64,000 nucleotides of DNA, taken from assembly GCA_947464185.1 (NCBI GenBank), contig CANHVY010000005.1:1-64000 (forward strand), written 5' to 3'. The notes below the pieces were generated by a model. The model did no database searches. It saw nothing but the letters and a program-made list of their open reading frames with translations, and was not told the origin of the DNA. Positions 40,446 to 64,000 of this stretch are shown here, one piece after another. How positions within the stretch are numbered: position 1 is the stretch's first letter; every line of letters starts with the position of its first letter. Source of the DNA: Burkholderiales bacterium (GTDB lineage: Bacteria > Pseudomonadota > Gammaproteobacteria > Burkholderiales > Burkholderiaceae_C). A program made the position numbers and the translations under genes.

Positions 40446-40465
40446 CCAGGGTCAAGAGAATTCGC

Positions 40466-40493: not shown

Positions 40494-40517
40494 ACAGGAA
40501 AACCCGAGGAGAACACC

Positions 40518-43149: not shown

Positions 43150-43230
43150 GCCGGCCTGCCGCATGGCCACCGTCAGAGAAGTTCGGTATCGTTGAACCTG
43201 CCTGATCAGCATCCACCGAAGAAGTCCTCG

Positions 43231-45647: not shown

Positions 45648-46838
45648 TCACTGCACCACCACCGGCACCTCCATCGCCGGCGGAGTGTTGCGACTGCGGC
45701 CGCAGCGCACCACGCCGTCGATCATGACCATGCCCACGCCGGGCAGGTCGCCGAGCTGGACGCTTTCCAGCAGGGTCCGCCCGGCGGTGTGCTGGGCGCG
45801 GTCGAGGAACACGAAGTCAGCGGCGCGGCCGGGCTCGATCAGGCCGCAGTCCAGGTTGCGCAGGCGCGCGGTATTGCCGGTGGCGAAACAGAAGACCAGC
45901 TCGGCCGGGATGTTGCCCAGGCTGGACAGCAGCGCAATCATGCGCAGCATGCCCAGGGGCTGCACGCCCGAGCCGGCCGGCCCGTCGGTGCCCAGGATCA
46001 CGCGGTGCGGGCACTTCAGCTGCAGTGCCATCTGCGCCGCGGCAATCGCCACCTTCTCGTTGCCGTTGTGCACGATCTCAATGGCGCGCGAGGACTTCTC
46101 GCACAGCTCGCACACATGGGCTTCGGGCAGCGAGGTGTGGCCGCCGTTGATGTGACCGATGACGTCAGCGTCAGCCTCCAGCACCACATCCTTGTCGATC
46201 AGGCCCGAGCCGGGAATGGACGGACCACCCGTGTGGATGGTGCTCTGGATGCCGTGCTTGCGCGCCCAGGCCACCATCTCGCGCGCCTCGTAGCCGGCCT
46301 TCACCGAGCCCAGGCCGACCTCGCCCAGCAGCTTCACGCCGGCCGCGGCCAGCTCGGCAAAGTCGCTCTCGACCATGCCTTTCTCGATGACCGGCGCGCC
46401 AGCCAGCACCTTCATGCCCGCGGGGCGAAAGTTGTCGAAGGCGCGCTGCGCGGTGATGGCCAGGGCCTTCAGGCCCACGATGTCCTTCGGGCGGCCGGGC
46501 AGGTGCACCTCGCCGGCTGAGATCATGGTGGTGACACCGCCGTTGAGCGTGGAGTCGATCCAGCCCAGCTGGTTCTGGCGCGGCGTCCAGTCGCCAAAAA
46601 CCGGGTGCACGTGGCTGTCGATCAGCCCCGGGGCCGCGCAGGTGCGGCGCGCATCGATCAGCAGGTCGGGCTGCTCGGTGTTGCAGTCAGCCTCCTTGCC
46701 CACGGCCACGATGCGGCCCTTTTCGCAGACGATGGTGTCGGCGTCCAGGATGGGGCGGTCGATGTCGCCCGACAGCAGCAGGCCGATGTTGCGGATGACG
46801 ACCTTGCCAGAGGTGGCGGCGGCGGCGGCTTCGGCCAT
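45648..46838 (-). CDS. Enamidase-like amidohydrolase (candidate 6-oxo-tetrahydronicotinate amidohydrolase)
   Basis: The product has 396 residues. The metal motif is DSHVHP (His76, His78), with further ligands in STIHTGG and INGGH and the Asp of GTDGPAGSG, as expected for a binuclear amidohydrolase barrel. The overall pattern (IRNIGLLLSGDIDRPILDAD at the start, GDLPGVGMVMIDGVV at the end) resembles enamidase of Eubacterium barkeri. That enzyme opens 1,4,5,6-tetrahydro-6-oxonicotinate to 2-formylglutarate and ammonia. A reductase homologue that would make the substrate is encoded nearby. It follows tetR by 30 bases. The substrate is inferred from family and context. Confidence 0.78.
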   Translation of the reverse strand: MAEAAAAATSGKVVIRNIGLLLSGDIDRPILDADTIVCEKGRIVAVGKEADCNTEQPDLLIDARRTCAAPGLIDSHVHPVFGDWTPRQNQLGWIDSTLNGGVTTMISAGEVHLPGRPKDIVGLKALAITAQRAFDNFRPAGMKVLAGAPVIEKGMVESDFAELAAAGVKLLGEVGLGSVKAGYEAREMVAWARKHGIQSTIHTGGPSIPGSGLIDKDVVLEADADVIGHINGGHTSLPEAHVCELCEKSSRAIEIVHNGNEKVAIAAAQMALQLKCPHRVILGTDGPAGSGVQPLGMLRMIALLSSLGNIPAELVFCFATGNTARLRNLDCGLIEPGRAADFVFLDRAQHTAGRTLLESVQLGDLPGVGMVMIDGVVRCGRSRNTPPAMEVPVVVQ

Positions 46839-46868
46839 GGAGGCTCCTTGCAGAGTGAGATGTGGACT

Positions 46869-47552
46869 TCAGGGAGTTGCAGGGGGAACGGTCACCAACA
46901 CCGTGCGCAACACTGCATCAGTGATGAACTGCTGCCACTGCGCCAGGGCCGCCGGATCTTCCAGGCTCTCACCCAGGAAGGTGGACAGCGTGTAGCGGTT
47001 GGACAGGTAAAAGTACCCCATGGAGGCGATCATCAGGTACACGTCCCGCGCCCGCAAGCCGGGCCTGAAAAGGCGGGCCTCCACGCCACTGCCCAGCACA
47101 CGCGACAGCACCTCCAGTGCCGGCGAGGAGTACTCACCCGCCTTGGAAGACTTGCCGATGTGCCGGCCGCGGTGCAGGTTCTCGCTGTTGAGCAGGGTGA
47201 TGAACTCGGGGTGCTTCTGGTAGTAACCCCACATGAAGGCGATGACGTCGCGCAGCGCTTCTACAGGTTGGTTCAGATCCAGCACCAGGCGCGCCTCTGC
47301 GTCGTTGAAGCGGCGGTAGATCTCCTCGATGACGGCAACGAACAGGGCTTCCTTGCTGCCGAAGTAGTAGTAGATCATCCGGTCGTGCGACTTGGCCGCA
47401 CGCGAGATCTGCTCCACCCGGGCCCCCGTGAGGCCCTGCTTGCCGAAGACCTTGATGGCGGCCTTGAGCAGCGTCTCGCGCGTGGCCTGCGCCGATTGCT
47501 CGCGCACGCCCGCCTTGCGGACGGTGGCAGCAGGCTTGCGTGCGGCAGGCAT
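46869..47552 (-). CDS. TetR-family transcriptional regulator
   Basis: The product has 227 residues. The N-terminal helix-turn-helix spans about 22-68 (TRETLLKAAIKVFGKQGLTG, then DRMIYYYFGSKEALFVAVIE). The rest is the helical ligand-binding domain, with a C-terminal TetR-type helix around YLMIASMGYFYLSNRYT. It lies between the reductase and enamidase genes and probably represses the divergent catabolic operons until an aromatic or ring-opened acid is present. An inverted repeat in the 48405-48486 intergenic region is a possible site. Confidence 0.92.
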   Translation of the reverse strand: MPAARKPAATVRKAGVREQSAQATRETLLKAAIKVFGKQGLTGARVEQISRAAKSHDRMIYYYFGSKEALFVAVIEEIYRRFNDAEARLVLDLNQPVEALRDVIAFMWGYYQKHPEFITLLNSENLHRGRHIGKSSKAGEYSSPALEVLSRVLGSGVEARLFRPGLRARDVYLMIASMGYFYLSNRYTLSTFLGESLEDPAALAQWQQFITDAVLRTVLVTVPPATP

Positions 47553-47630
47553 GAGCGGTGACGCCGAGGTGTCGTGAAGGTGCCGCTGAAAGGGCGACGG
47601 ACGCTGTGCCGGGAACTGCGGCAGGACCGG

Positions 47631-48404
47631 CTACTGGTCCACGAAGGCCCGCTCGATGACGAAGTCGCCCGGCCGGCTGGTGCTGCCTTCGGCGAAGCCG
47701 CGCTCCTCCAGCAGCCCCTTCAGTTCGCGCAACATGGCGGAGCTGCCGCAGATCATGGCGCGGTCGGTGGCCGGGTCCAGGTCGGGGCCGCCCACCAGGC
47801 GCGCCAGTTCGCCGCTGCGGATCAGATCGGGGATGCGGCCCATGGTGGGGAAAGGTTCGCGCGTCACGGTGGGCACGTAGCGCAGCTGCGCGCTGACCAT
47901 TTCGCCCAGGAACTCGTGGCGCGGCAGTTCTTCGGTGAGGTACTGGCGGTACGCCAGCTCGGCCACCTCGCGCACGCCGTGCACCAGCACCACCTGCTCA
48001 AAGCGCTCGTAGACCTCGGGGTCGCGCACGATGGACATGAACGGCGCCAGCCCCGTGCCCGTGGACAGCAGGAACAGGCGCTTGCCGGGGTTCAGGTAGT
48101 CGGTCACCAGGGTACCCGTGGGCTTGCGGCCCACGACCACGGTGTCACCGGGCTGCAGGTGCTGCAGGCGCGAGGTGAGCGGGCCGTCTTGCACCTTGAT
48201 GCTGAGGAACTCCAGGTGCTCCTCGTAGTTGGCGCTGGCCACGCTGTAGGCCCGCAACAGCGGCTTGCCGTCCACCATCAAGCCGATCATGGTGAAGTGA
48301 CCATTGGAAAACCGCAGCGCCGGGTCGCGCGTGGTGGTGAAGCTGAACAGGCGGTCGGTCCAGTGGTGAACCGTGAGCACGCGCTCGTGAAGGAAAGCAC
48401 TCAT
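47631..48404 (-). CDS. Ferredoxin-NADP+ reductase (Fpr type)
   Basis: The product has 257 residues, the bacterial Fpr length. RAYSVASANYEEHLEFLSIK is the FAD motif (RxYS), GDTVVVGRKPTGTLV follows, LLSTGTGLAPFMSIVRDPEV is the NADP pyrophosphate loop, and AMICGSSAMLRELKGLLEER is the nicotinamide-end motif. The C-terminus FVIERAFVDQ is like Azotobacter-type Fpr. It passes electrons between NADPH and ferredoxin. It is divergently placed opposite the 6-hydroxynicotinate reductase gene, which in E. barkeri uses ferredoxin, so it may drive that reaction. It could equally serve the Rieske system. Confidence 0.92.
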   Translation of the reverse strand: MSAFLHERVLTVHHWTDRLFSFTTTRDPALRFSNGHFTMIGLMVDGKPLLRAYSVASANYEEHLEFLSIKVQDGPLTSRLQHLQPGDTVVVGRKPTGTLVTDYLNPGKRLFLLSTGTGLAPFMSIVRDPEVYERFEQVVLVHGVREVAELAYRQYLTEELPRHEFLGEMVSAQLRYVPTVTREPFPTMGRIPDLIRSGELARLVGGPDLDPATDRAMICGSSAMLRELKGLLEERGFAEGSTSRPGDFVIERAFVDQ

Positions 48405-48456
48405 CGGTATTGCCCCCGTTGCGACGACGGCTCAATTGCGATAGATTGGGTTTTCA

Positions 48457-48494
48457 TGTAGCGGACGCAACATTTTCGTGAAGTGAATGCTACA
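48457..48494. promoter_or_regulatory. Inverted repeat in the divergent promoter region of the catabolic cluster
   Basis: TGTAGC (48457-48462) and GCTACA (48489-48494) are complementary arms separated by 26 bases, in the gap between the reductase genes transcribed to left and right. It is the most obvious symmetric element there. The right arm overlaps the upstream start codon of the plus-strand gene. It could bind TetR or another regulator. The wide spacing makes this tentative. Confidence 0.3.
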
Positions 48495-50118
48495 CGGGCT
48501 GAACCCATCGATCAACCACATGAGTGACCCTACCAGGCCAGACGGAGTGCGTGAGCAGGCGCATGACGCACCGCGCCCGCAGGTGCTGGAGAAGTCACGC
48601 CCGCGCAGCGATCGCATGGCGGCTGACAAGATCGAGTGCAATGCCTGCCCGGTGCTGTGCCAGATCTCCGAAGGCAAGGCCGGCGCCTGCGACCGCTACG
48701 CCAACCAGGCGGGCGTGCTGGTGCGGTTGGACCCGGTGCTGATCCTGGAGCGCGGGCTGGCGGGGAACGCCGCAGCGCCAGAAGCTGCCGCGGTGCCCTT
48801 CCTGGACGCGCCGGCCGACCCCGGCACGGGCGGCCTGCTGCACGCGCCCGAGGTCTTTGTCACCGGCGTGGGCTCGTCCACCACCTACCCCGACTACAAG
48901 CCGGCCCCCTTCATCGTCTCCTCCCGGCACGAGGGCGTGGACATGGTGACGGTGGTCACCGAAGGCATCTTCAGCTACTGCAGCTTCAAGGTGAAGATCG
49001 ACACCGACCGCTGGCTGGGCCCGGAGCAGGCGACCGTGCGCTGCAAGGGAGAGGCCGTGGGCCACGTCACCACGGCAGAGTACGGCTCGCAGATGCTGTC
49101 GCTGGGGGGGGTGCACCACCTCACGGGAGGCTCCAAGAAGGAAGGCCGCATCACCTGCGACATGATGATGGCGCTGGGCAATCGCGACCCCGTGGAACTG
49201 CAGATTGAGGGCGGCGCACAACTGCTGCTGCAGGCCGGGCGCGCGCCCGTGGTCAACGGCGTGGAAGAGCAGCGCATGCGCGTGGGCTGCGGCTCGGCGG
49301 CCGTGGGCATCTTCGCGCAGCAGTGGTACGGCCACGTGGACGAGGCCGTGGTGGTGGACGACCACATCACGGGCATCCTGTCCGAGCACCAGGCCGGCCG
49401 CTGCCTGGACATGACGCCTTCAGGCATCCGCATCCGTGGCCGGCGCAGCACGCCCGGGCGCTACTTCCAGGTGGCCAACCCGGGGACGGGCTGGGGCGGC
49501 ACCGACCTGACGAACCCGATGGACATCATCGAAGGCTGGGACCCCAAGGTCGCCTACCCGGGCCTGCGTCTGCTGATGACCTCCACCACCGGCGAGCACT
49601 GCGCCTGGTACGTGCTGGACGAGCATCTGGTGCCACGCCCGGCCCCCATGCCGCCGGCGGTGGCGGCCACGGTGGCCCGCATTGGCGAGAACTGCGAGCC
49701 CTCGGTGGCCTCGGTGCTGTTCCTGGCGGGGGCTGGCGGCAGCCTGCGTGCCGGCGTGACCGAGAACCCCGTGCTGCTCACGCGCAAGATCAAGCAGGCG
49801 CTGGTCAACGTCACCTGCGGCGGGGCGCCGGCCTACGTGTGGCCGGGCGGCGGCATCACCGTCATGGCCGACGTGATGCGCATGCCCGCGAACAGCTTCG
49901 GCACCGTGCCCACGCCGGCCATCGTGGCCCCCATCGAGTTCAGCATGCGCCTGGCGGACTACGAGGCGCTGGGCGGCCACATGGGGCAGGTGCGCAGCAT
50001 CGAGCAGGCGCTGCAGCGCGGCGCCGGGCACCGCGATGGCGCGCCGCTGTCGCGCCGCCACATCGCCGGGCACCCCGAGAACCCCTGGCCACTGGGCCAG
50101 CCGCCCATGCTCGGGTGA
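48487..50118 (+). CDS. 6-hydroxynicotinate reductase-like iron-sulfur protein
   Basis: The product has up to 543 residues; ATG 48520 is an alternative start. Near the N-terminus Cys51, Cys54, Cys58 and Cys68 (CNACPVLCQISEGKAGACDR) form a C-x2-C-x3-C-x9-C set suited to an iron-sulfur cluster. The remainder has no transmembrane helix and contains GVGSSTTYPDYKPAPFIVSS and GGAPAYVWPGGGITVMADV. It resembles the 6-hydroxynicotinate reductase of E. barkeri, an iron-sulfur flavoenzyme that reduces 6-hydroxynicotinate to 1,4,5,6-tetrahydro-6-oxonicotinate. Together with the enamidase homologue, this makes a two-step ring reduction and opening plausible. The substrate is inferred. Confidence 0.72.
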   Translation: MLHGLNPSINHMSDPTRPDGVREQAHDAPRPQVLEKSRPRSDRMAADKIECNACPVLCQISEGKAGACDRYANQAGVLVRLDPVLILERGLAGNAAAPEAAAVPFLDAPADPGTGGLLHAPEVFVTGVGSSTTYPDYKPAPFIVSSRHEGVDMVTVVTEGIFSYCSFKVKIDTDRWLGPEQATVRCKGEAVGHVTTAEYGSQMLSLGGVHHLTGGSKKEGRITCDMMMALGNRDPVELQIEGGAQLLLQAGRAPVVNGVEEQRMRVGCGSAAVGIFAQQWYGHVDEAVVVDDHITGILSEHQAGRCLDMTPSGIRIRGRRSTPGRYFQVANPGTGWGGTDLTNPMDIIEGWDPKVAYPGLRLLMTSTTGEHCAWYVLDEHLVPRPAPMPPAVAATVARIGENCEPSVASVLFLAGAGGSLRAGVTENPVLLTRKIKQALVNVTCGGAPAYVWPGGGITVMADVMRMPANSFGTVPTPAIVAPIEFSMRLADYEALGGHMGQVRSIEQALQRGAGHRDGAPLSRRHIAGHPENPWPLGQPPMLG

Positions 50119-50123
50119 CCAAG

Positions 50124-51059
50124 ATGGGACCGACCCGCACTCCCTTGCCTGGTGGCCGCTGGCACTTCGCCCACGGCCCGATCGAGCTGGTGATCGGGGC
50201 TGACATCGCCAGCGGAGCCCCAGAACGCACCCGGCTGACCGCGGCAGCACTCCCGATGACCCGGCGGGCTCCGGAGTCCGAGACCACCGTGCAGGTGGCT
50301 CATGAGCGGGCCTGGGCCCGGTTCCAGAGCGTGCTGCAAGAGTTGGTGGCCGAACTGCCGCTGCTGCGTCAGCCCGTGCAACCTGGGCCGTGCCCCGTCC
50401 AAGGCCCCGTCGCCCGCCGCATGTGGCAAGCATGCGCGGCCCTGCCCACCGACTTCATCACCCCCATGGCCGCAGTGGCCGGCGCGGTGGCGCAGGAGAT
50501 CCTGGCGCCCTACGCGCAGGCCGGCCTGCAACGCGCCTATGTGAACAACGGCGGCGACATTGCCCTGCACCTGGCGCCTGGCGCGCAGTGGCGCGTGGGG
50601 ATGGTGGCGGACATTGCGAAACGCCGCACCGCTCTCGACGGGGGCTTCACGCTGCAGGCCAGCGACCCCGTGCGCGGCGTGGCCACCAGCGGCTGGCGCG
50701 GACGCAGCCACTCGCTGGGCATTGCGGACGCGGTCACCGTGCTGGCCGCCACAGCCGCCCAGGCCGATGCGGCCGCCACCGTGATCGCCAACGCCGTGAA
50801 CCCGACCGAGCCGGACGCCCGACTGGGCATCGAACGGGCACCCGCCTGCTCTTTGAAGGACGACAGCGATCTGGGCAGCCGCCTGGTCACCGTGCTGGTG
50901 CCCGCGTTGGCGGCAGGCCTGGTCACTGCAGCGCTGCGCCGCGGTGCCAGAGTGGCCCAGCAACTGCAACACAACGGCCTGATCCATGCCGCCGTCCTGG
51001 CCTGCCAGGGGCAGACCCTGACCGTCGAGCCCATGCTCGCGCTGCAGGCAGCGGCGTGA
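50124..51059 (+). CDS. UPF0280 / ApbE-like protein
   Basis: The product has 311 residues from the ATG at 50124; a GTG at 50115 overlaps the upstream stop (GTGA) and may be the true coupled start. RAYVNNGGDIALHL is the NNGGDI segment shared with ApbE proteins. GVATSGWRGRSHSLGIADAV and ADAAATVIANAV match the ApbE C-terminal Thr/Ser-rich and ADAxAT regions. ApbE attaches FMN covalently to Thr/Ser of partner proteins. The UPF0280 group is uncharacterised. Directly after the reductase gene, it could install or bind the flavin of that enzyme; this is inference. Confidence 0.75.
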   Translation: MGPTRTPLPGGRWHFAHGPIELVIGADIASGAPERTRLTAAALPMTRRAPESETTVQVAHERAWARFQSVLQELVAELPLLRQPVQPGPCPVQGPVARRMWQACAALPTDFITPMAAVAGAVAQEILAPYAQAGLQRAYVNNGGDIALHLAPGAQWRVGMVADIAKRRTALDGGFTLQASDPVRGVATSGWRGRSHSLGIADAVTVLAATAAQADAAATVIANAVNPTEPDARLGIERAPACSLKDDSDLGSRLVTVLVPALAAGLVTAALRRGARVAQQLQHNGLIHAAVLACQGQTLTVEPMLALQAAA

Positions 51060-51138
51060 AGGCACCCCAAGCGACCCCCAACCACCCGAAGCCGCCTGAA
51101 TCCGACGGAAGCCTCACCCTCACCCGACACCCCGCACC

Positions 51139-51774
51139 ATGATCGAGATCCGACGCATCCTGACCCAGGTTGAAGACATCTTCCACGAAGGTGGACCCGT
51201 GGCGGCGGAACCGCTGCGGCGCGGGGCCATCGGCGCGGTGCTGAAGAACCCCTACGCCGGGCGCTACGTGGAGGACATCCTGCCCCTGATGGACGCGCTG
51301 TCGCCCCTGGGCCTGAGGCTGGCGCAGCAGCTGCTGGCCGCCATGCAGGTGGGGCCGGAGCGCATCCAGGGCTACGGCAAGGGGGCGCTCATCGGCGAGG
51401 CCGGTGAACTCGAACATGGGGCGCTCTGGCACGTGCCCGGCGGCTACGCCATGCGTGAGCTGCTGGGCTGGAAAGGCGACGCCGCCGCCTACAAGGCCGG
51501 GCAGTCCGGCAGTGGCCAGTCGGGCAATGCCCTGGCCATCGTGCCCAGCACCAAGAAGGTGGCCGGCCCGGGTGCCACGCTGGACATCCCGCTGACGAAC
51601 ATCAATGCCTCCTACGTGCGCAGCCACTTCGACGCCCTGGAGTTCCGTGTGCCCGACGCGCCCCGTTCGCACGAGATGGTGGTGGTGCTGGCGATGAGCA
51701 CAGGCGCACGCATCCACGCCCGGGTGGGTGGCCTGAAGGCCGCCGACATCGCCAAATGGGATGGGCAGCGCTGA
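51139..51774 (+). CDS. DUF1185 (PF06684, amino acid synthesis) family protein, copy 1
   Basis: The product has 211 residues. It has the family pattern: IRRILTQVEDIFHEGG at the start, GAVLKNPYAGRYVEDILPLM, GYGKGALIGEAGELEHGALW, and SYVRSHFDALEFRVPDAPRS near the end. Structures from this family show a variant of the chorismate-mutase fold, with no enzyme activity assigned. A second, shorter copy follows after 65 bases. Their placement between the putative reductase and its transporter suggests work on a ring-opened or amide intermediate, for instance an enamine or imine step. No signal peptide. Confidence 0.85.
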   Translation: MIEIRRILTQVEDIFHEGGPVAAEPLRRGAIGAVLKNPYAGRYVEDILPLMDALSPLGLRLAQQLLAAMQVGPERIQGYGKGALIGEAGELEHGALWHVPGGYAMRELLGWKGDAAAYKAGQSGSGQSGNALAIVPSTKKVAGPGATLDIPLTNINASYVRSHFDALEFRVPDAPRSHEMVVVLAMSTGARIHARVGGLKAADIAKWDGQR

Positions 51775-51839
51775 GGCACCAATCCACATCAGCGCTGACC
51801 AACCCCACCCGACACGATCCGACCGAGAGGACACTGAAC

Positions 51840-52424
51840 ATGCCCGCCCAGATCCGCAAGCTTGTCGTGCAGATCGACGAAACGCACCGCGAGATGGACC
51901 GTGAGGTCCAGCCGCCTACGCGGCGCGCGCTGGCCATGGCCGTCATCCACAACCCCTGCGCGGGCCGCTATGTGGAGAACCTGGACGAGCTGATCGCCAT
52001 CGGCGAGGAGCTCGGCGGCCTGCTGGGCCAGCGCTGCGTGCAGGCCCTGGGCATCGCGCCGGAGCAGGCCCACAGCTACGGCAAGGCCGCCATCGTGGGC
52101 GAGGCCGGCGAGCTGGAGCACGCCGCCGCCCTCCTGCACCCCAAGCTGGGCGCGCCGCTGCGCGCCGCCGTCAGCAAGGGCGCCGCCTTGGTGCCCTCGG
52201 CCAAGAAGCAAGGCGGCATGGGCACCGCGGTCGACGTGCCGCTGGGCCACAAGGACGCCGCCTTCGTGCGCAGCCATTTCGACGCCATGGAAGCGCGCAT
52301 CGCGGATGCACCGCGCGCGAACGAGATCGTGGTGGCCGTGGTCGTCACCGACAGCGGGCGACCGCTGCCGCGCATCGGCGGCCTGCAGGTGCACGAGATC
52401 AAGGGTACCGACGGGTTGCGCTGA
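51840..52424 (+). CDS. DUF1185 (PF06684) family protein, copy 2
   Basis: The product has 194 residues; the ATG at 51840 follows GAGAGGA by about 9 bases. It aligns with its neighbour along the whole length: AVIHNPCAGRYVENLDELIA, SYGKAAIVGEAGELEHAAAL and AFVRSHFDAMEARIADAPRA correspond to the same blocks. A ~15-residue insertion in copy 1 (near KGDAAAYKAGQSGSG) is absent. The pair may form a hetero-oligomer, since family members assemble as multimers. It lies 60 bases before the ABC receptor gene. Confidence 0.87.
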   Translation: MPAQIRKLVVQIDETHREMDREVQPPTRRALAMAVIHNPCAGRYVENLDELIAIGEELGGLLGQRCVQALGIAPEQAHSYGKAAIVGEAGELEHAAALLHPKLGAPLRAAVSKGAALVPSAKKQGGMGTAVDVPLGHKDAAFVRSHFDAMEARIADAPRANEIVVAVVVTDSGRPLPRIGGLQVHEIKGTDGLR

Positions 52425-52484
52425 GCCGCCAAGCCCCGGAAGATTTCACGCTTTTCCACCCCCACTCCTGAAGGAGATCGCCCC

Positions 52485-53681
52485 ATGAAGAGAAGACATC
52501 TGATCGCCGCCGCCAGCCTGGTGGCCGCCGCCGCCCTGCCGGTGCACGCCCAGGGCGTGATCAAGATCGGCGAAGTCAACAGCTACAAGGCGCAACCCGC
52601 CTTCCTGGAGCCCTACAAGAAGGGCATGGATCTGGCAGTGGAGGAAATCAACGCCGCTGGTGGCGTGGGCGGCCGCAAGCTGGAGCTCATCACGCGCGAC
52701 GACAACGCCAACCCGGGCGATGCCGTGCGCGTGGCCGAGGAGTTGCTGTCGCGCGAGAAGATCGACGTGCTGACCGGCACCTTCCTGTCGCACATCGGCC
52801 TGGCGCTGACAGACTTCGCCAAGCAGAAGAAGGTGTTCTTCCTGGCGGGCGAGCCGCTGACCGACAAGATCGTCTGGGCCAACGGCAATGCCTACACCTA
52901 CCGCCTGCGCCCCAGCACCTACATGCAGGTGGCCATGCTGGTGCCCGAGGCGGCGAAGCTGAAGAAGAAGCGCTGGGCCATCGTCTACCCCAACTACGAG
53001 TACGGCCAGTCGGCCATCGCCAGCTTCAAGCAGTTGCTGAAGGCGGCGCAGCCTGACGTGGAATTCGTCGCCGAACAGGCGCCGCCGTTGGGACGCGTGG
53101 AGGCCGGCCCGGTGGTGCAGGCCCTGCTGGATTCCAAGCCCGACGCCATCTTCAACGTGCTGTTCGGCGCCGACCTGTCGCGCTTCGTGCGCGAGGGCAA
53201 CACCCGTGAGCTCTTCAAGGGCCGGGAGGTGGTGAGCCTGCTGACGGGCGAGCCCGAGTACCTGGACCCGCTGAAAGACGAGACGCCCAACGGCTGGATC
53301 GTCACCGGCTACCCCTGGAACGGCATCAACACGCCCGAGCACCGCACCTTCCTGGCGGCCTACCAGAAGCGGTTCAACGACTACCCGCGCCTGGGCTCGG
53401 TGGTGGGCTACGCGCTGATCCATTCGGTGGCTGCGGGCGTGGCCAAGGCCGGTGGCACCGAGACCGACAAGCTGGTGGCTGCGTTCCGTGGCCTGCAGGT
53501 GAACACGCCCTTCGGGCGCATCACCTACCGCCCCGAGGACAACCAGTCCACGCTGGGCGCCTTCGTCGGCCGCACCAAGAACGAAGGGGGCAAGGGCGTG
53601 ATGGTGGACTACCGCTACCTGGACGGCGCCAACTTCCTGCCCAGCGCCGCCGAGGTGCGCAAGCTGCGTCCAGCGAACTGA
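52485..53681 (+). CDS. ABC transporter substrate-binding protein (branched-chain amino acid/amide type)
   Basis: The product has 398 residues. The signal peptide MKRRHLIAAASLVAAAALPV is cleaved after HAQ. The mature protein starts GVIKIGEVNSYKAQPAFLEP and has the two-lobed LivK-like layout with AINAAGGVGGRKLELITRDD-type segments. It is a periplasmic receptor for a small polar ligand. Clear SD GAAGGAG precedes the ATG. Its place ahead of permease and ATPase genes and in the middle of the N-heterocycle cluster suggests it imports nicotinate or a related carboxylate rather than leucine; this is inference. Confidence 0.92.
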   Translation: MKRRHLIAAASLVAAAALPVHAQGVIKIGEVNSYKAQPAFLEPYKKGMDLAVEEINAAGGVGGRKLELITRDDNANPGDAVRVAEELLSREKIDVLTGTFLSHIGLALTDFAKQKKVFFLAGEPLTDKIVWANGNAYTYRLRPSTYMQVAMLVPEAAKLKKKRWAIVYPNYEYGQSAIASFKQLLKAAQPDVEFVAEQAPPLGRVEAGPVVQALLDSKPDAIFNVLFGADLSRFVREGNTRELFKGREVVSLLTGEPEYLDPLKDETPNGWIVTGYPWNGINTPEHRTFLAAYQKRFNDYPRLGSVVGYALIHSVAAGVAKAGGTETDKLVAAFRGLQVNTPFGRITYRPEDNQSTLGAFVGRTKNEGGKGVMVDYRYLDGANFLPSAAEVRKLRPAN

Positions 53682-53740
53682 TGCACGCTTGAACCGGACC
53701 CGAGCCGCCCCGCCCGCCTGAACCAGCCCCTGAGCCGCCC

Positions 53741-55642: not shown

Positions 55643-56403
55643 GCTTGCTGAGCGTCAAAGGGCTGGGCAAGTCCTTCGGCGGCGTGCGCGCCGTCGACGG
55701 CATCGACTTCGACATCGCCCCGGGCGAGTTGCTGGCCCTGATCGGGCCCAACGGGGCGGGCAAGTCCACCACTTTCAACATGGTGAACGGGCAGCTGCGG
55801 GCCGACCGCGGCAGCATCCTGCTGGAAGGCACCGAACTCATCGGCCTGCAGCCCCGCCAGATCTGGAATCTGGGCGTGGGCCGCACCTTCCAGATCGCCG
55901 AGACCTTCTCGTCCCTCACCGTGCTGGAGAACGTGCAGATGGCCCTGCTGTCGGCAGACCGGCAGGTGTTCTCGTTCTTCGCGCGGGCCGGCGAACACCG
56001 TCGCGAAGACGCCCTGGCCCTGCTGGCGCAGGTGGGCATGGCCGAGCAGGCCCAGCGCCCCTGCAGTGAGCTCGCCTACGGCGACGTCAAGCGCGTGGAA
56101 CTGGCCGTGGCCATGGCGCATGCGCCCAAGCTGCTGCTGATGGACGAGCCCACCGCCGGCATGGCGCCCAAGGAGCGCAACGAGCTGATGGAGCTGACCA
56201 AGGGCCTGGTGGTGGAGCGCCGCATGGCGGTGCTCTTCACCGAGCACAGCATGGACGTGGTATTTGCCCATGCCGACCGCGTCATCGTGCTGGCCCGCGG
56301 CCGCCTGATCGCCGGCGGCAGGCCCAGCGAAATCAGAGACCACCCCAAGGTGCAGGAGGTCTATCTCGGCACCGGCAAGACCTTCGAGCGCCAGGACACA
56401 TGA
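55639..56403 (+). CDS. ABC transporter ATP-binding protein (LivG type)
   Basis: The product has 254 residues. Walker A GPNGAGKST, the LivG-specific GRTFQIAETFSSLTVLENVQ, a signature-like ELAYGDVKRVELAVAMAH, Walker B LLLMDEPTAGMAP, and the H-loop LFTEHSMDVVFAHAD are all present. The canonical LSGGQ is replaced by LAYGD, which occurs in some LivG proteins. It couples ATP hydrolysis to import through the fused permease. It overlaps both neighbours by 4 bases. Confidence 0.94.
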   Translation: MSLLSVKGLGKSFGGVRAVDGIDFDIAPGELLALIGPNGAGKSTTFNMVNGQLRADRGSILLEGTELIGLQPRQIWNLGVGRTFQIAETFSSLTVLENVQMALLSADRQVFSFFARAGEHRREDALALLAQVGMAEQAQRPCSELAYGDVKRVELAVAMAHAPKLLLMDEPTAGMAPKERNELMELTKGLVVERRMAVLFTEHSMDVVFAHADRVIVLARGRLIAGGRPSEIRDHPKVQEVYLGTGKTFERQDT

Positions 56404-57134
56404 CAGATACCGCACCCCTGCTGGACGTGAAATCGCTGTCGGCCTGGTACGGCGGCGCGCACATCCTCTTTGACATTTCGCTGCAGGTGCACCCGGGCGA
56501 GGTGGTGGCCCTGATGGGCCGCAACGGCGCAGGCAAATCCACCACACTCAAGACCGTGATGGGCATGGTCGAAAAGCGCCGCGGCCAGGTGCAGTTCATG
56601 GGCCGTGACATCTCGCGCCTGGAGTCGCACGCCATCGCTTCGGCCGGCCTGGGCTACGTGCCGGAAGACCGCCGCATCTTCACCGACCTCACCGTGCTGG
56701 AGAACCTGGAGGTGGGCCGCCAGCCACCGCGCATGGGATCGCAAGGTCAGATGCTGGAGGCCTGGACCCCGCAGCGCCTGTTCAAGCTCTTCCCGAATCT
56801 GGGCGAGATGCCTGACCGCCCCGGCGGCCGCATGAGCGGTGGTGAGCAGCAGATGCTCACCGTGGCCCGCACCCTGATGGGCAACCCGTATCTGGTGCTG
56901 CTGGACGAACCCAGCGAAGGCGTGGCCCCGGTGATCGTCGAAGGCATGGTGCAGATGATCCTGGAGCTCAAGGCCGCGGGGGTGAGCATCCTGCTGTCCG
57001 AGCAGAACCTGCACTTCGCCACGCTGGTCTCGGACCGCGCCTACGTGCTGGAGAAGGGCCAGATCCGCTACCAGGGCACCATGCGGGAGTTGGCTGCCGA
57101 CGACGAGGTGCGGCGGGCTTATCTGTCGATGTGA
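56400..57134 (+). CDS. ABC transporter ATP-binding protein (LivF type)
   Basis: The product has 244 residues. Walker A GRNGAGKST, the segment GLGYVPEDRRIFTDLTVLEN (typical of LivF), signature MSGGEQQML, Walker B LVLLDEPSEGVAP and LSEQNLHFATLVSDRAYVLE are complete. It starts with an ATGA overlap to livG and ends overlapping the dehydrogenase small-subunit gene. The transporter and hydroxylase are thus one transcription unit. Confidence 0.94.
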   Translation: MTDTAPLLDVKSLSAWYGGAHILFDISLQVHPGEVVALMGRNGAGKSTTLKTVMGMVEKRRGQVQFMGRDISRLESHAIASAGLGYVPEDRRIFTDLTVLENLEVGRQPPRMGSQGQMLEAWTPQRLFKLFPNLGEMPDRPGGRMSGGEQQMLTVARTLMGNPYLVLLDEPSEGVAPVIVEGMVQMILELKAAGVSILLSEQNLHFATLVSDRAYVLEKGQIRYQGTMRELAADDEVRRAYLSM

Positions 57135-57616
57135 TGCGGTTCCTACTCAATGGCCGCGCCTTCGAGCCGGGCCACGCCGCACCAGGCGCCACCTTGCTGC
57201 AGGTGTTGCGCAACGACGCGCTGTGCAACGGCCCGAAGTTCGGCTGCGGACTGGGGCAATGCGGCGCCTGCACGGTGCTGGTGGACGGCCGCGTGGCCCG
57301 GGCCTGCGTGATCCCGGCTGAGAGCGTGGCCGGGCGGGAGATCACCACGCTGGAAGGCCTGGGAAGCCGTGAAGCTCCGCACCCCGTGCAGCAGGCCTTC
57401 ATCGACGCACAGGCCGCTCAGTGCGGCTACTGCACCAACGGCATGGTGATGGCCACCGTGGCCTTGCTGCGCCGCTGCCCGCTGCCCACTGACGCGCAGA
57501 TCCGCGAGGCCCTGTCGCACAACCTGTGCCGCTGCGGCGCGCATGTGGAGATCCTGCAGGCGGTGCACCTGGCAGCCCAACGCCTGGCCGAAACATCGGC
57601 GTCAGAAGGCGCCTGA
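57131..57616 (+). CDS. Molybdenum hydroxylase small [2Fe-2S] subunit (nicA/iorA-like)
   Basis: The product has 161 residues from GTG 57131; an ATG at 57134 is the next codon and equally likely. Plant-type [2Fe-2S] ligands are Cys39, Cys44, Cys47 and Cys59 (GCGLGQCGACTVL). The second helical domain has Cys98, Cys101, Cys133 and Cys135 (QCGYCTNGM and LCRCGAH). This is the complete xanthine-oxidase-family electron-transfer subunit. It moves electrons from the molybdenum centre of the next gene product toward the cytochrome domains. It overlaps livF and is 11 bases from the large-subunit gene. Confidence 0.93.
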   Translation: MMRFLLNGRAFEPGHAAPGATLLQVLRNDALCNGPKFGCGLGQCGACTVLVDGRVARACVIPAESVAGREITTLEGLGSREAPHPVQQAFIDAQAAQCGYCTNGMVMATVALLRRCPLPTDAQIREALSHNLCRCGAHVEILQAVHLAAQRLAETSASEGA

Positions 57617-57627
57617 TCACTCCCGCC

Positions 57628-60600
57628 ATGCGCGCCGCCAACGCCCCCGGCACCCGCGCCGGCTTCCTCGAAGCCCAGGGCGTGCTGCTGGTGGTGCGCG
57701 ACCCGCCCCCACCGCCTCCACCCGCCCCCGGCCAGCCGCCCATGGTGCCGGGCAACCCGGCCGAAGGGGTGGAGATCCTGCTGGCGCTGTGGGACGACGG
57801 CAGCGCCAACGGCCTGGGCGGCAAGGTGGACCTGGGTACCGGCATCGCCACCGCGCTGGGCCAGCTGGTGGCCGAGGAACTGGAGCTGCCTTTCGAGCGC
57901 GTGGTCATGCTGCTGGGCGACACCGCCCGCGTGCCCAACCAGGGCCCCACCATCGCCAGCGCCACGCTGCAGATCGCCTCCGATCCGCTCAAGCGCGCCG
58001 CCGCGCAGGCGCGCGCCTGGCTGCGGGCGCAGGCGGCCGAAGGCAGCGTCGCCGACATCCCCACCCTGCTGCGTGGCCAGCACATCCGCCTGGTGCTGGA
58101 CCCGGCCACGCCGCTGAAACCCAGCGCCGAGTGGACGGTGGCGGGCAAAAGCCTGCCGCGCGTGGACATCCCCGCCAAGGTGCTGGGCGAAGCCGCATTC
58201 GTACACGATGTGCGCCTGCCCGGCATGCTGCACGGCCGCGTGGTGCGCCCGCCTTACGCGGGCGCCGACCATGGCGAGTTCATCGGCCGCACGCTGCGCG
58301 CGGTGGACGAGTCCTCGGTGGCCCACCTGCCGGGCATCGTGGCCATCGTGCGCGAGGGCGACTTTGTCGGCATCGTGGCCGAGCGCGAAGAACAGGCTGA
58401 AACCGCCCTGCGCGCCTTGCGGCTGGACTGGGGCGACTGGCCAGCCCAACCACCTCTGCAAGACCTGGCCAACGCCTTGAGCGCCAACCCCGCCACGTCG
58501 CGTGTGGTGGCTGAGCGCGGCGACGTCAACGCGGCCAATGAAAAAGCACCGCTGCGACTGCAAAGCCGCTACGTCTGGCCCTATCAGATGCACGCCTCGA
58601 TCGGCCCGTCGTGCGCCGTGGCGCATTGGGTGCCTGAGGGTTCAGAACCTGGCGCAGAGCCGGACGGAGAGCCCTGCGCAGCATCACCCGACGGCGCCGG
58701 GCAAACCGCGACGGCACACGAGGCCACGACAAGTGCGGGCACCCCAGGCGCGACGCGTCTGCGCGTGTGGTCTGGCACGCAGAACCCCCACGTGCTGCGC
58801 GCCGATCTCGCCCTGCTGACCGGCCTGCCCGACACCGCCGTGGACGTGGTGCGCCTGGAGGCCGCCGGCTGCTACGGCCGCAATGGCGCCGATGACGTGA
58901 CGGCAGACGCCGCGCTGCTGTCGCGCGCCGTGGGACGGCCCGTGCGGGTGCAGCTCACGCGCGAACAGGAGCACCAGTGGGAGCCCAAGGGCGCCGCGCA
59001 GCTGATGGACGTGGACGGCTCGGTGGGCGCCGACGGGCGGCTGCAGGGCTGGGACTTCGAGACCTGCTACCCCAGCAACGCCGCGCCCACGCTGGCGCTG
59101 CTGCTCACCGGCCGCGTGGCGGCCACAGCGCAGGCCTATGCCATGGGCGACCGCACCTCGGTGCCGCCCTACCAGGTGCCGAACCTGAAGGTGACGGTCA
59201 ACGACATGCCGCCCATCCTGCGCGCCTCCTGGCTGCGCGGGGTGTCGGCCCTGCCGAACTCCTTCGCGCACGAGAGCTTTGTCGACGAACTGGCGCACGC
59301 CCAGGGCGAAGACCCGCTGGCCTTCCGCCTGAAGCATCTGGACGACCCGCGCGCGGCCGAACTCCTGCGCGAAACCGCTGAGCGCGCCGGCTGGCAGCCC
59401 CACGTGGGCCCCCGGCAGCACAGTGACGACGGCGTCACCCTCAAGGGCCAGGGCCTGGCCTATGCCCGCTACATCCACAGCAAGTTCCCGGGCTTCGGCG
59501 CCGCGTGGTCCGCCTGGGTGGCCGACGTGGAGGTGAACAAGCTCACGGGCGAGGTGCACGTCAGCCGCGTGGTGGTGGGTCATGACGCGGGCGCCATGGT
59601 CAACCCGGCAGGGGTCACGCACCAGGTGCACGGCAACGTGGTGCAGACCACCAGCCGCGCGCTGCAGGAACAGGTGGCGGTGGAACCGCAGACCGGCACG
59701 GTGGCCACGCGGGAATGGGGCAGCTACCCCATCCTGAGCTTCCGGCAGGTGCCGGTGATCGAGGTGGTGGTGCCGCCCCGCCCGGGCGAACCCGTCCTCG
59801 GCGCGGGCGAGTCGTCCTCGGTGCCGGGCACGGCGGCCATCGCCAACGCGATCTTCGATGCCACGGGCGTGCGCTTTCGCCAGCCGCCCTTCACGCCTGA
59901 GGTGGTGCGCGCCGCGCTGAACCCGCTGGAGGATGGGTCAGGGGCGCAGGTGCCCAGCCACGCCCACCCGTCTGGCGCCGATGGGTTGGTAGCCGCTGGG
60001 TCGGACGGTCGTGGCACTGGTACGCCGGGTGCAGCGGCCGACGAAGGCGCGCACAGCGCCAACCCAGGGGCCGAGACCAGCCCATCGCGCACCGGCCCAC
60101 CGCCCGCCTGGGTCGAGGAAGTGGCGCCGAGCACCACTGCGCCAGCACCCCTCGGCGCACCCCGCGCCAAGCCCGCGTGGGCTCGGGCGCTGGCCTTGGT
60201 CACCGGTGCCTTCGCGGCGCTGGCGGGTCTGGCCGGACTGGTCGCCTCCCGCCCAGCACTCGCGCCCATCTCGGGCGTGAATGCAGCTGCGGTCTACAGC
60301 ACCGAGACCCTGGAACGCGGCCGCCAACTCGCCGCCCTGGGCAACTGCGCGGGCTGCCACACGGCCGAGGGCGGTAAGGCCAACGCCGGGGGCCGACCGC
60401 TGGAGACGCCGTTTGGCACCGTCTACGCCACCAACCTCACGCCCGACCCCGCCACCGGCATCGGCCGCTGGTCCTTCAGCGCCTTCCAGCGCACCATGCG
60501 CGAGGGCGTGTCGCACGACGGGCGCATGCTCTACCCCGCCTTCCCGTACACCGCCTTCACGCGCATGACGGATGACGAGCTGACCGCGCTGTACGCCCAC

Positions 60601-61599
60601 CTGATGGCCCAGCCCGCGGTGGCGCAGGCCACCCCAGCCGCCGACCTGCGCGCCCCCTTCCACCTTCGCCCGCTGATGCACCTGTGGAACGCGCTGCATC
60701 TCCAGCCCGGCCCACGTGCCGTGCCCGCGGCCACGCTGGCAGCCCTGCCTGCGGGCGTGGACGCGGCGCTGTGGCAGCGCGGTGAGTATCTGGTGAACGG
60801 CCCCGGCCACTGCGGCGCCTGCCACACGCCGCGCGACGCCCTGGGAGCCGAAAGGACGGGCAGCGCTTATCTTTCAGGCGCCTGGGTGGACGGCTGGCAT
60901 GCGCCGTCGCTCACCTCGCTGAACCGTCGCACCCTGCCCTGGAGCGAGGCCGCCTTGCTGGGCTACCTGAAGCACGGCCACAGTGCTGCCCACGGCGTGG
61001 CCGTGGGGCCGATGGCGCAGGTGGTGGGCTCACTCCAAGGTGCGCCCGAGCAGGACCTGCGCGCCATGGCGCACTACCTGGCCACGCTGCAGGGCAACAC
61101 AGCAGCCCAGACCGCGGTGCCAGGCAGCACGGCCCAACAGGGAGCAGCAGGTCAACCCCTTTCAGAGTCACCCACGGCCGGCCCGGACACAGCCCTCGTC
61201 ACCCGCCTGGCGACCGAAGCCGTGGCGCGCGCCCGCGCGCTGGCCCCGCTGCCGGACGGCACCCAGCGCATGTTCGAGAGCGCCTGCGGCGCCTGCCACA
61301 GCGATGGGGCCGCGCCTGTGGACCTGGGCCTGAACCTGCCTCTGGCGACCAACAGCAAGCTGCAAGCCGACCAGCCCGACAACCTGTTGCGCGTGCTGCT
61401 GGACGGCATCCAGCGCCCGGCCACGCGCGACATCGCCTTCATGCCTGGCTTCCGCCACGCGCTGGACGATGCCCAATTGGCCGATCTCGCGCTGTGGCTG
61501 CGGCGCCGCTACGCGCCCGACCATCCCGCCTGGCCAGGCGCGCAGGCGATGCGTGAGCGCGTGGCCCAGGTGCGCGGCGCCCCCCGCAGCGACCGATGA
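57628..61599 (+). CDS. Molybdenum hydroxylase large subunit with tri-haem cytochrome c tail (nicB/iorB-like)
   Basis: The product has 1323 residues from the ATG at 57628. Residues ~1-770 are the molybdopterin domains of the NicB/IorB type, including the hammerhead (KVLGEAAFVHDVRLPGMLHG near 190) and Glu728 in GAGESSSVPG, the expected catalytic base. A Pro/Gly/Ala-rich linker (~770-848) and one hydrophobic helix (~849-880) follow. Three c-type haem sites come next: CAGCH (907-911), CGACH (1062-1066) and CGACH (1220-1224). Pseudomonas NicB has the same plan and hydroxylates nicotinate at C6, passing electrons to the respiratory chain. The substrate here is inferred from the neighbouring reductase and enamidase. 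Confidence 0.88.
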   Translation: MRAANAPGTRAGFLEAQGVLLVVRDPPPPPPPAPGQPPMVPGNPAEGVEILLALWDDGSANGLGGKVDLGTGIATALGQLVAEELELPFERVVMLLGDTARVPNQGPTIASATLQIASDPLKRAAAQARAWLRAQAAEGSVADIPTLLRGQHIRLVLDPATPLKPSAEWTVAGKSLPRVDIPAKVLGEAAFVHDVRLPGMLHGRVVRPPYAGADHGEFIGRTLRAVDESSVAHLPGIVAIVREGDFVGIVAEREEQAETALRALRLDWGDWPAQPPLQDLANALSANPATSRVVAERGDVNAANEKAPLRLQSRYVWPYQMHASIGPSCAVAHWVPEGSEPGAEPDGEPCAASPDGAGQTATAHEATTSAGTPGATRLRVWSGTQNPHVLRADLALLTGLPDTAVDVVRLEAAGCYGRNGADDVTADAALLSRAVGRPVRVQLTREQEHQWEPKGAAQLMDVDGSVGADGRLQGWDFETCYPSNAAPTLALLLTGRVAATAQAYAMGDRTSVPPYQVPNLKVTVNDMPPILRASWLRGVSALPNSFAHESFVDELAHAQGEDPLAFRLKHLDDPRAAELLRETAERAGWQPHVGPRQHSDDGVTLKGQGLAYARYIHSKFPGFGAAWSAWVADVEVNKLTGEVHVSRVVVGHDAGAMVNPAGVTHQVHGNVVQTTSRALQEQVAVEPQTGTVATREWGSYPILSFRQVPVIEVVVPPRPGEPVLGAGESSSVPGTAAIANAIFDATGVRFRQPPFTPEVVRAALNPLEDGSGAQVPSHAHPSGADGLVAAGSDGRGTGTPGAAADEGAHSANPGAETSPSRTGPPPAWVEEVAPSTTAPAPLGAPRAKPAWARALALVTGAFAALAGLAGLVASRPALAPISGVNAAAVYSTETLERGRQLAALGNCAGCHTAEGGKANAGGRPLETPFGTVYATNLTPDPATGIGRWSFSAFQRTMREGVSHDGRMLYPAFPYTAFTRMTDDELTALYAHLMAQPAVAQATPAADLRAPFHLRPLMHLWNALHLQPGPRAVPAATLAALPAGVDAALWQRGEYLVNGPGHCGACHTPRDALGAERTGSAYLSGAWVDGWHAPSLTSLNRRTLPWSEAALLGYLKHGHSAAHGVAVGPMAQVVGSLQGAPEQDLRAMAHYLATLQGNTAAQTAVPGSTAQQGAAGQPLSESPTAGPDTALVTRLATEAVARARALAPLPDGTQRMFESACGACHSDGAAPVDLGLNLPLATNSKLQADQPDNLLRVLLDGIQRPATRDIAFMPGFRHALDDAQLADLALWLRRRYAPDHPAWPGAQAMRERVAQVRGAPRSDR

Positions 61600-62507
61600 A
61601 CCCCGCCCCGCGCCACCCCGCCGCTGGCATGGCGCTGGGGGTGCTGGCCGTGGCGCTGTTCGGCGCCACACTGCCCATCACTCGCTGGACCATGGGCACT
61701 GGCAGCGGCGATGCGGACGCACCGGCCATGTCGGCGCTGTTCATCACCTTCAGCCGTGTGGTGTTGGCCGCCGCCGTCTCGGCGCTGTGCCTGCTGGCCC
61801 TGCGCGCGCGCTGGCCCACGCGCCAGGAGTGGGTCCCGCTGGCCGTGGCGGCGGCAGGCAACGCGGTGCTGTACCCGCTGTCGCTGGCCCTGGCGCTGCG
61901 CGAGCAGACCGCAGCGCATGTGGCCGTGATCACCGCCCTGCTGCCCCTGGCCACGGCCGCTGCCGCCGCGCTGGCCGGCGGCGCAGCCCCCAGCACAACA
62001 GCGGGCCGATGGCGCTTCTGGCTCTGCGCGGTGGTGAGCGCCATCGTGGTCGTGCTGTTCTCGCTGCAGCGCAGCGGGCAGACCTTCATCCTGGCGGCCG
62101 ACGACCTCATCGTCGCCGGCGGTGTGCTGGCCGCCGCAGTGGGCTACGTTCAGGGCGCCAAGGTCACCCGCGCCATGGGGGCCGAGCGGGCCATCTGCTG
62201 GGTGACGCTGCTGACCCTGCCCGTGAGCCTGCCCATCACCCTGGCCACCTGGCCCACCGGCCCCGTGTCCGCCCCGGCCTGGGGCGGCCTGGTGTACCTG
62301 GGTCTGGTGTCGATGTGGGCGGCCTTCTTCGCCTGGTACCGCGCGCTGGACTGGGGCGGCCCGCTGCGCGTCAGCCAGACCCAGGCCTTCCAGCCCTTCT
62401 TCTCCATCGCCCTGGCCTGGCCGCTGCTGGGTGAAGCGCCTGACGGCTACACGCTCGCTTTTGCCGCCGCAGTGGTGGCGCTGGTGGTGGTGGGGACGCG
62501 GCGTTAA
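61596..62507 (+). CDS. DMT-superfamily (EamA) transporter
   Basis: The product has 303 residues with about ten transmembrane helices in two EamA repeats; the first begins MALGVLAVALFGATLPITRW and the second near DDLIVAGGVLAAAVGYVQGA. It probably exports or exchanges a small metabolite; the substrate cannot be read. Its ATG overlaps the hydroxylase stop by 4 bases, making it the last gene of the catabolic operon. It is convergent with the next gene, 31 bases away, with no clear terminator between. Confidence 0.9.
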   Translation: MNPAPRHPAAGMALGVLAVALFGATLPITRWTMGTGSGDADAPAMSALFITFSRVVLAAAVSALCLLALRARWPTRQEWVPLAVAAAGNAVLYPLSLALALREQTAAHVAVITALLPLATAAAAALAGGAAPSTTAGRWRFWLCAVVSAIVVVLFSLQRSGQTFILAADDLIVAGGVLAAAVGYVQGAKVTRAMGAERAICWVTLLTLPVSLPITLATWPTGPVSAPAWGGLVYLGLVSMWAAFFAWYRALDWGGPLRVSQTQAFQPFFSIALAWPLLGEAPDGYTLAFAAAVVALVVVGTRR

Positions 62508-63555: not shown

Positions 63556-64000
63556 ACCCGCCTCCGCGCTCGCGCCATCAGCCCCTGGGGGAAGGCGCGG
63601 ATCAGCAGGATGGCCACCGTGAACACCACGCCCTGCGCCCACACGGGCGAGAAGAAGGTCGACACCAGGTTGTCCGTGACGCCCACGGCAGTGGCACCGG
63701 CCAGGGGGGCGGCCACGCTGCCCAGGCCACCCACCAGGATGGACAGGAAGGCCGGCACGAGAAAGCCCAGGCCCATCTGCGGATCCAGCGACACCAGCGG
63801 CGCCATCACCGCGCCGGCCAGGCCGGCCAGCCCCGCGCCGAAGGAGAAAGTCAGCCGGTCCAGACGTCGGGTGTCGATGCCCAGGCAGGCCGCCATGGAA
63901 CGGTTGGCAATGACGCTGCGTGCCGACAGGCCCCACGATGTGCGGAAGAACAGCCAGAAGGTCGCGGCCAGGGTGACCAGCGTCACGGCCATGACGAACA
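63552..64000 (-). CDS. ABC transporter permease (LivH/UrtB type), partial
   Basis: About 148 C-terminal residues are visible; the gene continues beyond the right edge. ARSVIANRSMAACLGIDTRR and LTFSFGAGLAGLAGAVMAPL match the UrtB/LivH coupling loop and following helix, and ILVGGLGSVAAPLAGATAVG the GGxGS helix. The C-terminus is FPQGLMARARRRV. It is translationally coupled to the LivM/UrtC-type gene. The receptor and ATPases should lie outside. Confidence 0.87.
   Translation of the reverse strand, partial: FVMAVTLVTLAATFWLFFRTSWGLSARSVIANRSMAACLGIDTRRLDRLTFSFGAGLAGLAGAVMAPLVSLDPQMGLGFLVPAFLSILVGGLGSVAAPLAGATAVGVTDNLVSTFFSPVWAQGVVFTVAILLIRAFPQGLMARARRRV

Follow-up and report, generated by a model that had tools for sequence, protein, structure and literature searches.

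The stretch of DNA examined here (the window: positions 1-64,000, forward strand, of contig CANHVY010000005.1, assembly GCA_947464185.1, from a Burkholderiales bacterium) carries at 45648-62507 a divergent and compact gene cluster that is very likely a catabolic locus for nicotinate, and for nicotinamide by way of an adjoining nicotinamidase, in which the ring would be reduced and then hydrolysed. A sequence-only reading of the window had suggested a reductive breakdown of nicotinate with a cytochrome-linked hydroxylase feeding it, and this stands as the best reading, supported by gene content and linkage.

Gene content, family membership and conserved linkage are observed. Family searches of the window's reading frames place on the minus strand an enamidase homologue of the amidohydrolase family (45648..46838), a TetR-family protein, probably the local regulator (46869..47552; Pfam TetR_N and TetR_C_29), and a ferredoxin-NADP reductase-like protein (FNR; 47631..48404; PF00175 and PF00970 of the flavin adenine dinucleotide (FAD)/NAD reductases), which is the predicted electron supply of the reductase encoded beside it. 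On the plus strand stand a 6-hydroxynicotinate reductase homologue (Hnr; 48487..50118), a UPF0280-type protein with an ApbE-like predicted fold (50124..51059) and two AA_synth (DUF1185) paralogues (51139..51774 and 51840..52424, the second frame being open from 51756 with a likely start at 51840). They are followed by a four-gene Liv-type ATP-binding cassette (ABC) importer, made of a periplasmic solute-binding protein (52485..53681; Peripla_BP_6), a fused LivH-LivM-type permease (53741..55642; two BPD_transp_2 stretches), a LivG-type ATPase (55639..56403; ABC_tran and BCA_ABC_TP_C) and a LivF-type ATPase (56400..57134; ABC_tran). The NicA-type [2Fe-2S] small subunit of a molybdenum hydroxylase (57134..57616; Fer2 and Fer2_2), its NicB-type large subunit, which binds the molybdenum cofactor and ends in cytochrome c domains (57628..61599; MoCoBD_1/2, Cytochrom_C and Cytochrome_CBB3), and an EamA-family transporter (61596..62507; PF00892) complete the strand. 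Family and PDB searches thus found the enamidase, TetR, FNR, Hnr, ABC importer and NicAB-type hydroxylase homologues all where the earlier reading had put them; its gene list had overlooked the UPF0280 gene and the two AA_synth genes.

The closest solved relative of the enamidase homologue is the Eubacterium barkeri enamidase 2VUN (phmmer against the PDB, E 1.3e-104, aligned over residues 11-390, nearly full length), with which it shares the motifs HVH, GEVGLG, HTGG, HINGG and D-x-P. It is predicted to hydrolyse 1,4,5,6-tetrahydro-6-oxonicotinate (THON) to ammonia and 2-formylglutarate; the E. barkeri enzyme gives ammonia and (S)-2-formylglutarate (PMC7356986; reaction also in PMC9304392). Hnr falls into no Pfam family. 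Its plasmid homologues, found in 26 records at approximately 60-72% identity, are annotated as "6-hydroxynicotinate reductase" in 17 of them and are unannotated or "hypothetical" in the other 9, and cysteines 51, 54, 58, 68, 165, 268 and 403 are invariant in both of our alignments (14 and 39 rows). A claim about the fold of Hnr was dropped, the 39-sequence model having a predicted local distance difference test score (pLDDT) of 57.6 and no PDB match at E <= 0.001. The NicAB type of hydroxylase is defined by a [2Fe-2S] subunit and a molybdenum subunit with cytochrome c motifs, no FAD subunit being present. This architecture is found here, the molybdenum subunit being fused to three CxxCH haem motifs (CAGCH, CGACH and CGACH), and the product of 57134-61599 is predicted to be a nicotinate 6-hydroxylase that passes electrons to the respiratory chain. 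A match to the FAD-type hydroxylase subunit occurred in 13 of 117 loci compared.

The grouping is not a chance event, because the same or a closely similar gene order recurs in most of 80 related loci. These are the best of at least 590 stretches confirmed out of 594 candidates in an Hnr scan of contigs from one genome per species, and linkage was counted in those with enough sequence. Their titles name Burkholderiales or beta-proteobacteria, apart from one "uncultured bacterium" (L086), and one of the 80 (L102) has the FAD-type match. The gene next after Hnr encodes UPF0280 in 75 of 76 loci, at least one AA_synth gene follows within 3 kb in all 73, of which 68 have a pair, FNR is the divergent upstream neighbour in 54 of 74, the enamidase was found in 52 of 54 and a match to the hydroxylase small subunit in 60 of 62; TetR matches adjoin many of the relatives' clusters. 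The search for this gene order in other Burkholderiales was therefore positive, and similar clusters are common in the order; Paraburkholderia xenovorans LB400, for instance, has one (L113). In the genome samples of the same family and of the phylum, 49 of 299 and 32 of 398, respectively, carry Hnr, and a scan of viral contigs gave two pattern matches and no relative.

Beyond the EamA gene, a second importer of the Urt/Liv type runs on the minus strand from 62539 to approximately contig position 67421, beginning with a permease that probably belongs to the same locus (62539..63936; BPD_transp_2, UrtC-like below the cut-off). This permease and the importer's binding protein and two ATPases share 40-49% identity with an importer of Neopusillimonas maritima (L142) that is encoded there upstream of Hnr. 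Past it, about 5 kb from the EamA gene, lies the only nicotinamidase of the genome above the cut-off (67546-68145). The locus thus most likely spans 45648 to approximately contig position 68150, beyond the window's right edge; on that side the boundary given in the sequence-only reading was too narrow.

The same reading had named nicotinate or a related N-heteroaromatic as the substrate. This breadth can be narrowed to nicotinate because a nicotinamidase adjoins the cluster here and lies within 27 of 62 related ones, and gene linkage makes nicotinamide and nicotinate together the most likely substrates. The 62 are the loci having both importer and hydroxylase, and in the 27 a single sequence cluster of isochorismatase-family genes stands between the two; all three representatives tested pass the curated nicotinamidase cut-off, one of them with nicotinamidase 2WT9 as its best solved match (E 1e-86). 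The interval 45648-62507 itself holds no nicotinamidase. It is improbable that homologous enzymes break down another N-heteroaromatic acid here, such as isonicotinate, picolinate or a substituted pyridine. Hydroxylases of the xanthine dehydrogenase type and importers of the Liv type each cover a broad range of compounds, and a Hnr cluster on plasmid pSM30-1 of Pleomorphomonas sp. SM30 (L202), with AA_synth and HyuAB-type genes, lacks an annotated hydroxylase nearby and is preceded by genes annotated as amidotransferase and allophanate hydrolase, which points to a possible different substrate. However, the linkage to nicotinamidase, both here and in the 27 clusters, speaks for nicotinate, as do the homology of the enamidase to the E. 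barkeri nicotinate-pathway enzyme and the use of nicotinate by SG-6C, which has the same type of cluster (PMC3511419). On a Sinorhizobium medicae plasmid (L204), AA_synth is accompanied by two nucleoside hydrolases, a hydantoinase and an isochorismatase-family gene whose best model is RutB and which scores below the nicotinamidase cut-off; no Hnr is annotated in that stretch.

We infer all of the catalytic steps, most firmly those of the hydroxylase, Hnr and the enamidase, and least firmly the AA_synth and glutarate steps. Nicotinate would be imported through one or both ABC systems and converted to 6-hydroxynicotinate by the [2Fe-2S]-molybdenum-cytochrome hydroxylase, the electrons going to the cytochromes. 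Hnr would then reduce the ring to THON with electrons from the divergent FNR through ferredoxin, UPF0280 aiding the maturation of the Hnr cofactors, and the enamidase would open the ring to give ammonia and 2-formylglutarate. One or both AA_synth proteins may help convert this beta-aldehydo acid to glutarate semialdehyde and CO2, after which enzymes encoded elsewhere would oxidise it to glutarate for entry into central metabolism. Hnr probably needs low-potential electrons. A chain from NADPH over FNR and ferredoxin to Hnr would fit the FNR gene beside Hnr and the ferredoxin-type gene that immediately precedes Hnr in 10 of 109 loci, though not in this window (one representative was tested). 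For the lower part of the route, the gene 15 bases after the enamidase in L142 best fits succinate--glutarate coenzyme A (CoA)-transferase (517 bits, below the cut-off of 750), in line with the passage through glutarate that PMC3511419 cites for Azorhizobium. A CoA-transferase near the L071 cluster was not used, since its acyl-CoA-dehydrogenase-, MaoC- and HpcH/HpaI-like neighbours suggest, by eye, another route for C5 dicarboxylates.

Several points weigh against this reading. The function of the cluster is predicted here from its genes; the hydroxylase belongs to a broad family and owes its substrate to context, and Hnr is identified by annotated homologues rather than by direct comparison with the E. 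barkeri enzyme. No ferredoxin gene lies in the 83 bases between FNR and Hnr. Among the relatives, FNR is not beside Hnr in 20 of the 74 loci. These 20 include 14 loci of the 80, namely Neopusillimonas L142 and 13 whose titles name Burkholderia or Paraburkholderia, in which the enamidase stands downstream of the importer genes and no FNR match was found. The enamidase was not found in L079 and L133, both with enough sequence, and three genomes of the same genus in the family sample lack a Hnr match, so the distribution of the locus is patchy. The cluster holds no lower-pathway gene; in the organism's own genome 12 stretches matched succinate--glutarate CoA-transferase, the best at 288 bits and none over the cut-off of 750, and no glutaryl-CoA dehydrogenase was recognised by eye in the frames around the best four. 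Further, one Hnr-positive genome (G435) of the 32 in the phylum sample has no AA_synth match, the only such case, which makes AA_synth dispensable, and a sulfur-trafficking role has been published for relatives of UPF0280 (PMC5764234, PMC12068725).

UPF0280 is a candidate cofactor-maturation partner of Hnr. The protein matches NF003322 (363 bits, cut-off 290) and has a plasmid homologue annotated UPF0280; the frame that holds it has no Pfam family and hence no ApbE match in Pfam. That UPF0280 is a flavin transferase attaching a covalent flavin to Hnr seems plausible, at somewhat short of an even chance. A Foldseek search with its structure model (pLDDT 88.7) returned first 2O34 (DUF375), which we take to be of the same family, and at ranks 3 to 41 exclusively ApbE, FmnB or Ftp chains, with probabilities up to 1.00 for ApbE-type chains; yet the TM-scores to these chains are low (0.27-0.46). 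The alignment conserves NNGGD in 32 of 33 rows and ADxAAT in 30 of 33, which presumably resemble ApbE motifs, and Alhapel's 2006 study is said to have found a covalent flavin in E. barkeri Hnr. The target motif of ApbE is D-x-x-[ST]-G-A-[TS]; neither the 14-row nor the 39-row Hnr alignment has it in any row, which speaks against flavin transfer. The published alternative is that COG2122 proteins, presumably the same family, move sulfur for persulfide or Fe-S chemistry. In the sections cited, COG2122 is described as distant kin of ApbE, needed in homocysteine synthesis and with a suggested persulfide role (PMC5764234).

In the alpha- and other proteobacterial loci read, the Hnr-UPF0280 pair is kept while other parts change, the hydroxylase being of the cytochrome type or of the FAD type. 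At the ring-opening step, the metal-dependent enamidase and an ATP-dependent lactamase are apparently exchanged for one another. We compared 21 Hnr-positive genomes chosen from 78, counting HyuA at 60% identity or more to that of Neorhizobium (L203). Ten carry the enamidase and 12 a caprolactamase-like HyuA, the latter being all 11 enamidase-free genomes and G419, which has both (Fisher p 3e-5, uncorrected for descent); a thirteenth genome, with a HyuA match at 44%, was left out of the count. The HyuA match falls within the 20-kb stretch around Hnr in 8 of the 12 and elsewhere in 4. The L203 HyuA and HyuB best fit the caprolactamase subunits CapA and CapB, below the cut-off, and caprolactamase opens lactams with ATP (PMC8453981). 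No report of such an exchange, nor of HyuAB in this pathway, was found among the open-licence papers listed. G435 (L153), which lacks AA_synth, carries a caprolactamase-like HyuA and a FAD-type hydroxylase.

Both AA_synth proteins of the cluster are full-length members of PF06684 (230 and 241 bits, cut-off 27, positions 1-175 of 175), and they belong to two old clades, with support of 100/100 for paralogue 1 and 95/87 for paralogue 2. In the phylum sample AA_synth is found in 31 of the 32 Hnr-positive genomes and in 28 of the 366 Hnr-negative ones (Fisher p 1e-28, uncorrected for descent), and it is present in all 18 alpha- and other proteobacterial Hnr loci read, L153 excepted. Of 20 further places with AA_synth, 19 have no Hnr or enamidase match; neighbours were annotated in six of the 19 (ten genes). 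They are an alpha/beta hydrolase with an aldehyde dehydrogenase at two places and, at one place each, an alpha/beta hydrolase with a luciferase-type monooxygenase, an alpha/beta hydrolase with a FAD monooxygenase, a FAA hydrolase and a TctC receptor. The AA_synth proteins from the hydrolase and aldehyde-dehydrogenase contexts form a separate clade (support 100/99), and these contexts we infer to be trigonelline (tgn) clusters. A rule of one AA_synth copy per ring opener was rejected, because both copies accompany HyuAB on plasmids L203 and L208. There is a tendency only: copy 2 occurs in all 10 genomes with the enamidase and in 1 of the 11 without it, the second copy of one genome (G352) lying elsewhere and being left unplaced. 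In G419 the Hnr cluster has a single AA_synth, and an AA_synth pair sits directly beside an enamidase on another contig (L232, C11:50000-60500).

From the presence of AA_synth with Hnr in 31 of 32 genomes, and from its hydrolase and aldehyde-dehydrogenase neighbours elsewhere, we propose that it handles a ring-opening product of the 2-formylglutarate type, be it an alpha-formyl acid itself or a cyclic or enamine form of it; the boldest version of this proposal would be decarboxylation. A broader reading, tentative and on the unlikely side, is that AA_synth proteins process alpha-formyl dicarboxylic acids from the opening of N-heterocycles, in a core module with Hnr and UPF0280 whose hydroxylases (cytochrome- or FAD-linked) and ring openers (enamidase or ATP-dependent caprolactamase-like HyuAB) are exchangeable. 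Such proteins would convert 2-formylglutarate to glutarate semialdehyde and CO2 in nicotinate clusters and act on a product of the 2-formylsuccinate type in trigonelline-type clusters. Standing at not quite an even chance is the view that AA_synth involves no decarboxylation and acts on a neighbouring form, by opening a lactone or lactol, by RidA-like hydrolysis of an enamine or by aiding an aldehyde dehydrogenase. RidA is within the same broad fold class as AA_synth. For this view also speak the fold, a variant of Bacillus chorismate mutase (PMC2954203), and the reported stimulation of succinate-semialdehyde oxidation in trigonelline breakdown by TgnF, a member of the AA_synth family; a stimulation of a dihydrocoumarin step was proposed for HcdD, of the same family, but could not be observed (PMC7913881). 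The present evidence favours neither decarboxylation nor these options. The crystal-structure paper, in the parts cited, gives AA_synth only a possible role with amino acids, from fold and genome context (PMC2954203); we found no reaction assigned to the family among the open-licence papers listed, and none of the TgnF matches listed was on the subject by its title.

The sequence-only reading had implied novelty in calling the pathway a hybrid aerobic version, which is not supported: this cluster type in aerobes was published in 2012 (PMC3511419), and the present locus is a further member, not new in outline. The clusters of that report, from Azorhizobium caulinodans, Bradyrhizobium japonicum, Rhodopseudomonas palustris HaA2 and strain SG-6C, encode the enzymes of the first three steps together with a putative ABC transporter and two conserved proteins of unknown function; the route, as predicted here, goes via THON and, in A. 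caulinodans, passes via glutarate, SG-6C grows on nicotinate and 6-hydroxynicotinate, and 42% is reported for its Hnr homologue (PMC3511419). Unlike those clusters, as far as the text compared describes them, ours combines a divergently transcribed FNR-TetR-enamidase operon with two copies of AA_synth and an EamA gene and, beyond the window, the second importer and nicotinamidase; that text names neither the hydroxylase type nor the two unknown proteins of the published clusters (PMC3511419). A literature search pairing "6-hydroxynicotinate reductase" with "enamidase" returned no paper. The locus has a hydroxylase, Hnr and an enamidase in common with E. barkeri, covering the first three steps, whereas its hydroxylase ends in cytochrome c. 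According to Alhapel in 2006, E. barkeri reportedly uses a FAD/selenium hydroxylase, its further reduction of 2-formylglutarate leading to propionate and pyruvate, and the first three genes are said to have been found in nine Proteobacteria; the clustered lower pathway of E. barkeri reportedly comprises a dehydrogenase, a dehydratase, a B12 mutase, an isomerase and dimethylmalate enzymes.

The nic pathway of Pseudomonas putida proceeds from NicAB to 2,5-dihydroxypyridine. Its hydroxylase has the same architecture as ours, a [2Fe-2S] subunit with a molybdenum protein bearing cytochrome c motifs; unlike it, the interval 45648-62507 has no monooxygenase or ring-cleaving dioxygenase gene and has the reductase and enamidase instead. 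The absence of nicC, nicX, nicD, nicE, nicF and the E. barkeri lower pathway, also part of the earlier reading, holds for this interval, where every gene is otherwise assigned; the window is partly annotated and the genome was not searched. Trigonelline clusters are said to have been described by Perchat in 2018. The trigonelline ring is opened by oxygenation, whereas opening in the nicotinate cluster follows reduction. As in the tgn clusters with a DUF1185 protein, AA_synth stands beside enzymes acting on the ring-opening product (PMC7913881). The nicC/nicX route is known in Burkholderiales too, in Burkholderia gladioli (PMC10269826). The present occurrence adds mainly to distribution, reductive catabolism of vitamin B3 being widespread in Burkholderiales. 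The larger value of these clusters would lie in helping to find out what two poorly understood families do, DUF1185/AA_synth and UPF0280; the roles of both, and the apparent exchange of ring openers, are open to direct enzyme assay.

To the left of the cluster, 24674-43103 holds genes for citrate synthase, a succinate-dehydrogenase-type flavoprotein, a lactate/malate dehydrogenase, aconitase B and a tripartite tricarboxylate transporter, probably a gene group of the tricarboxylic acid cycle. Between aconitase B and the cluster, at 43192-44646, lies a gene for a Rieske protein with a LigXa_C domain.

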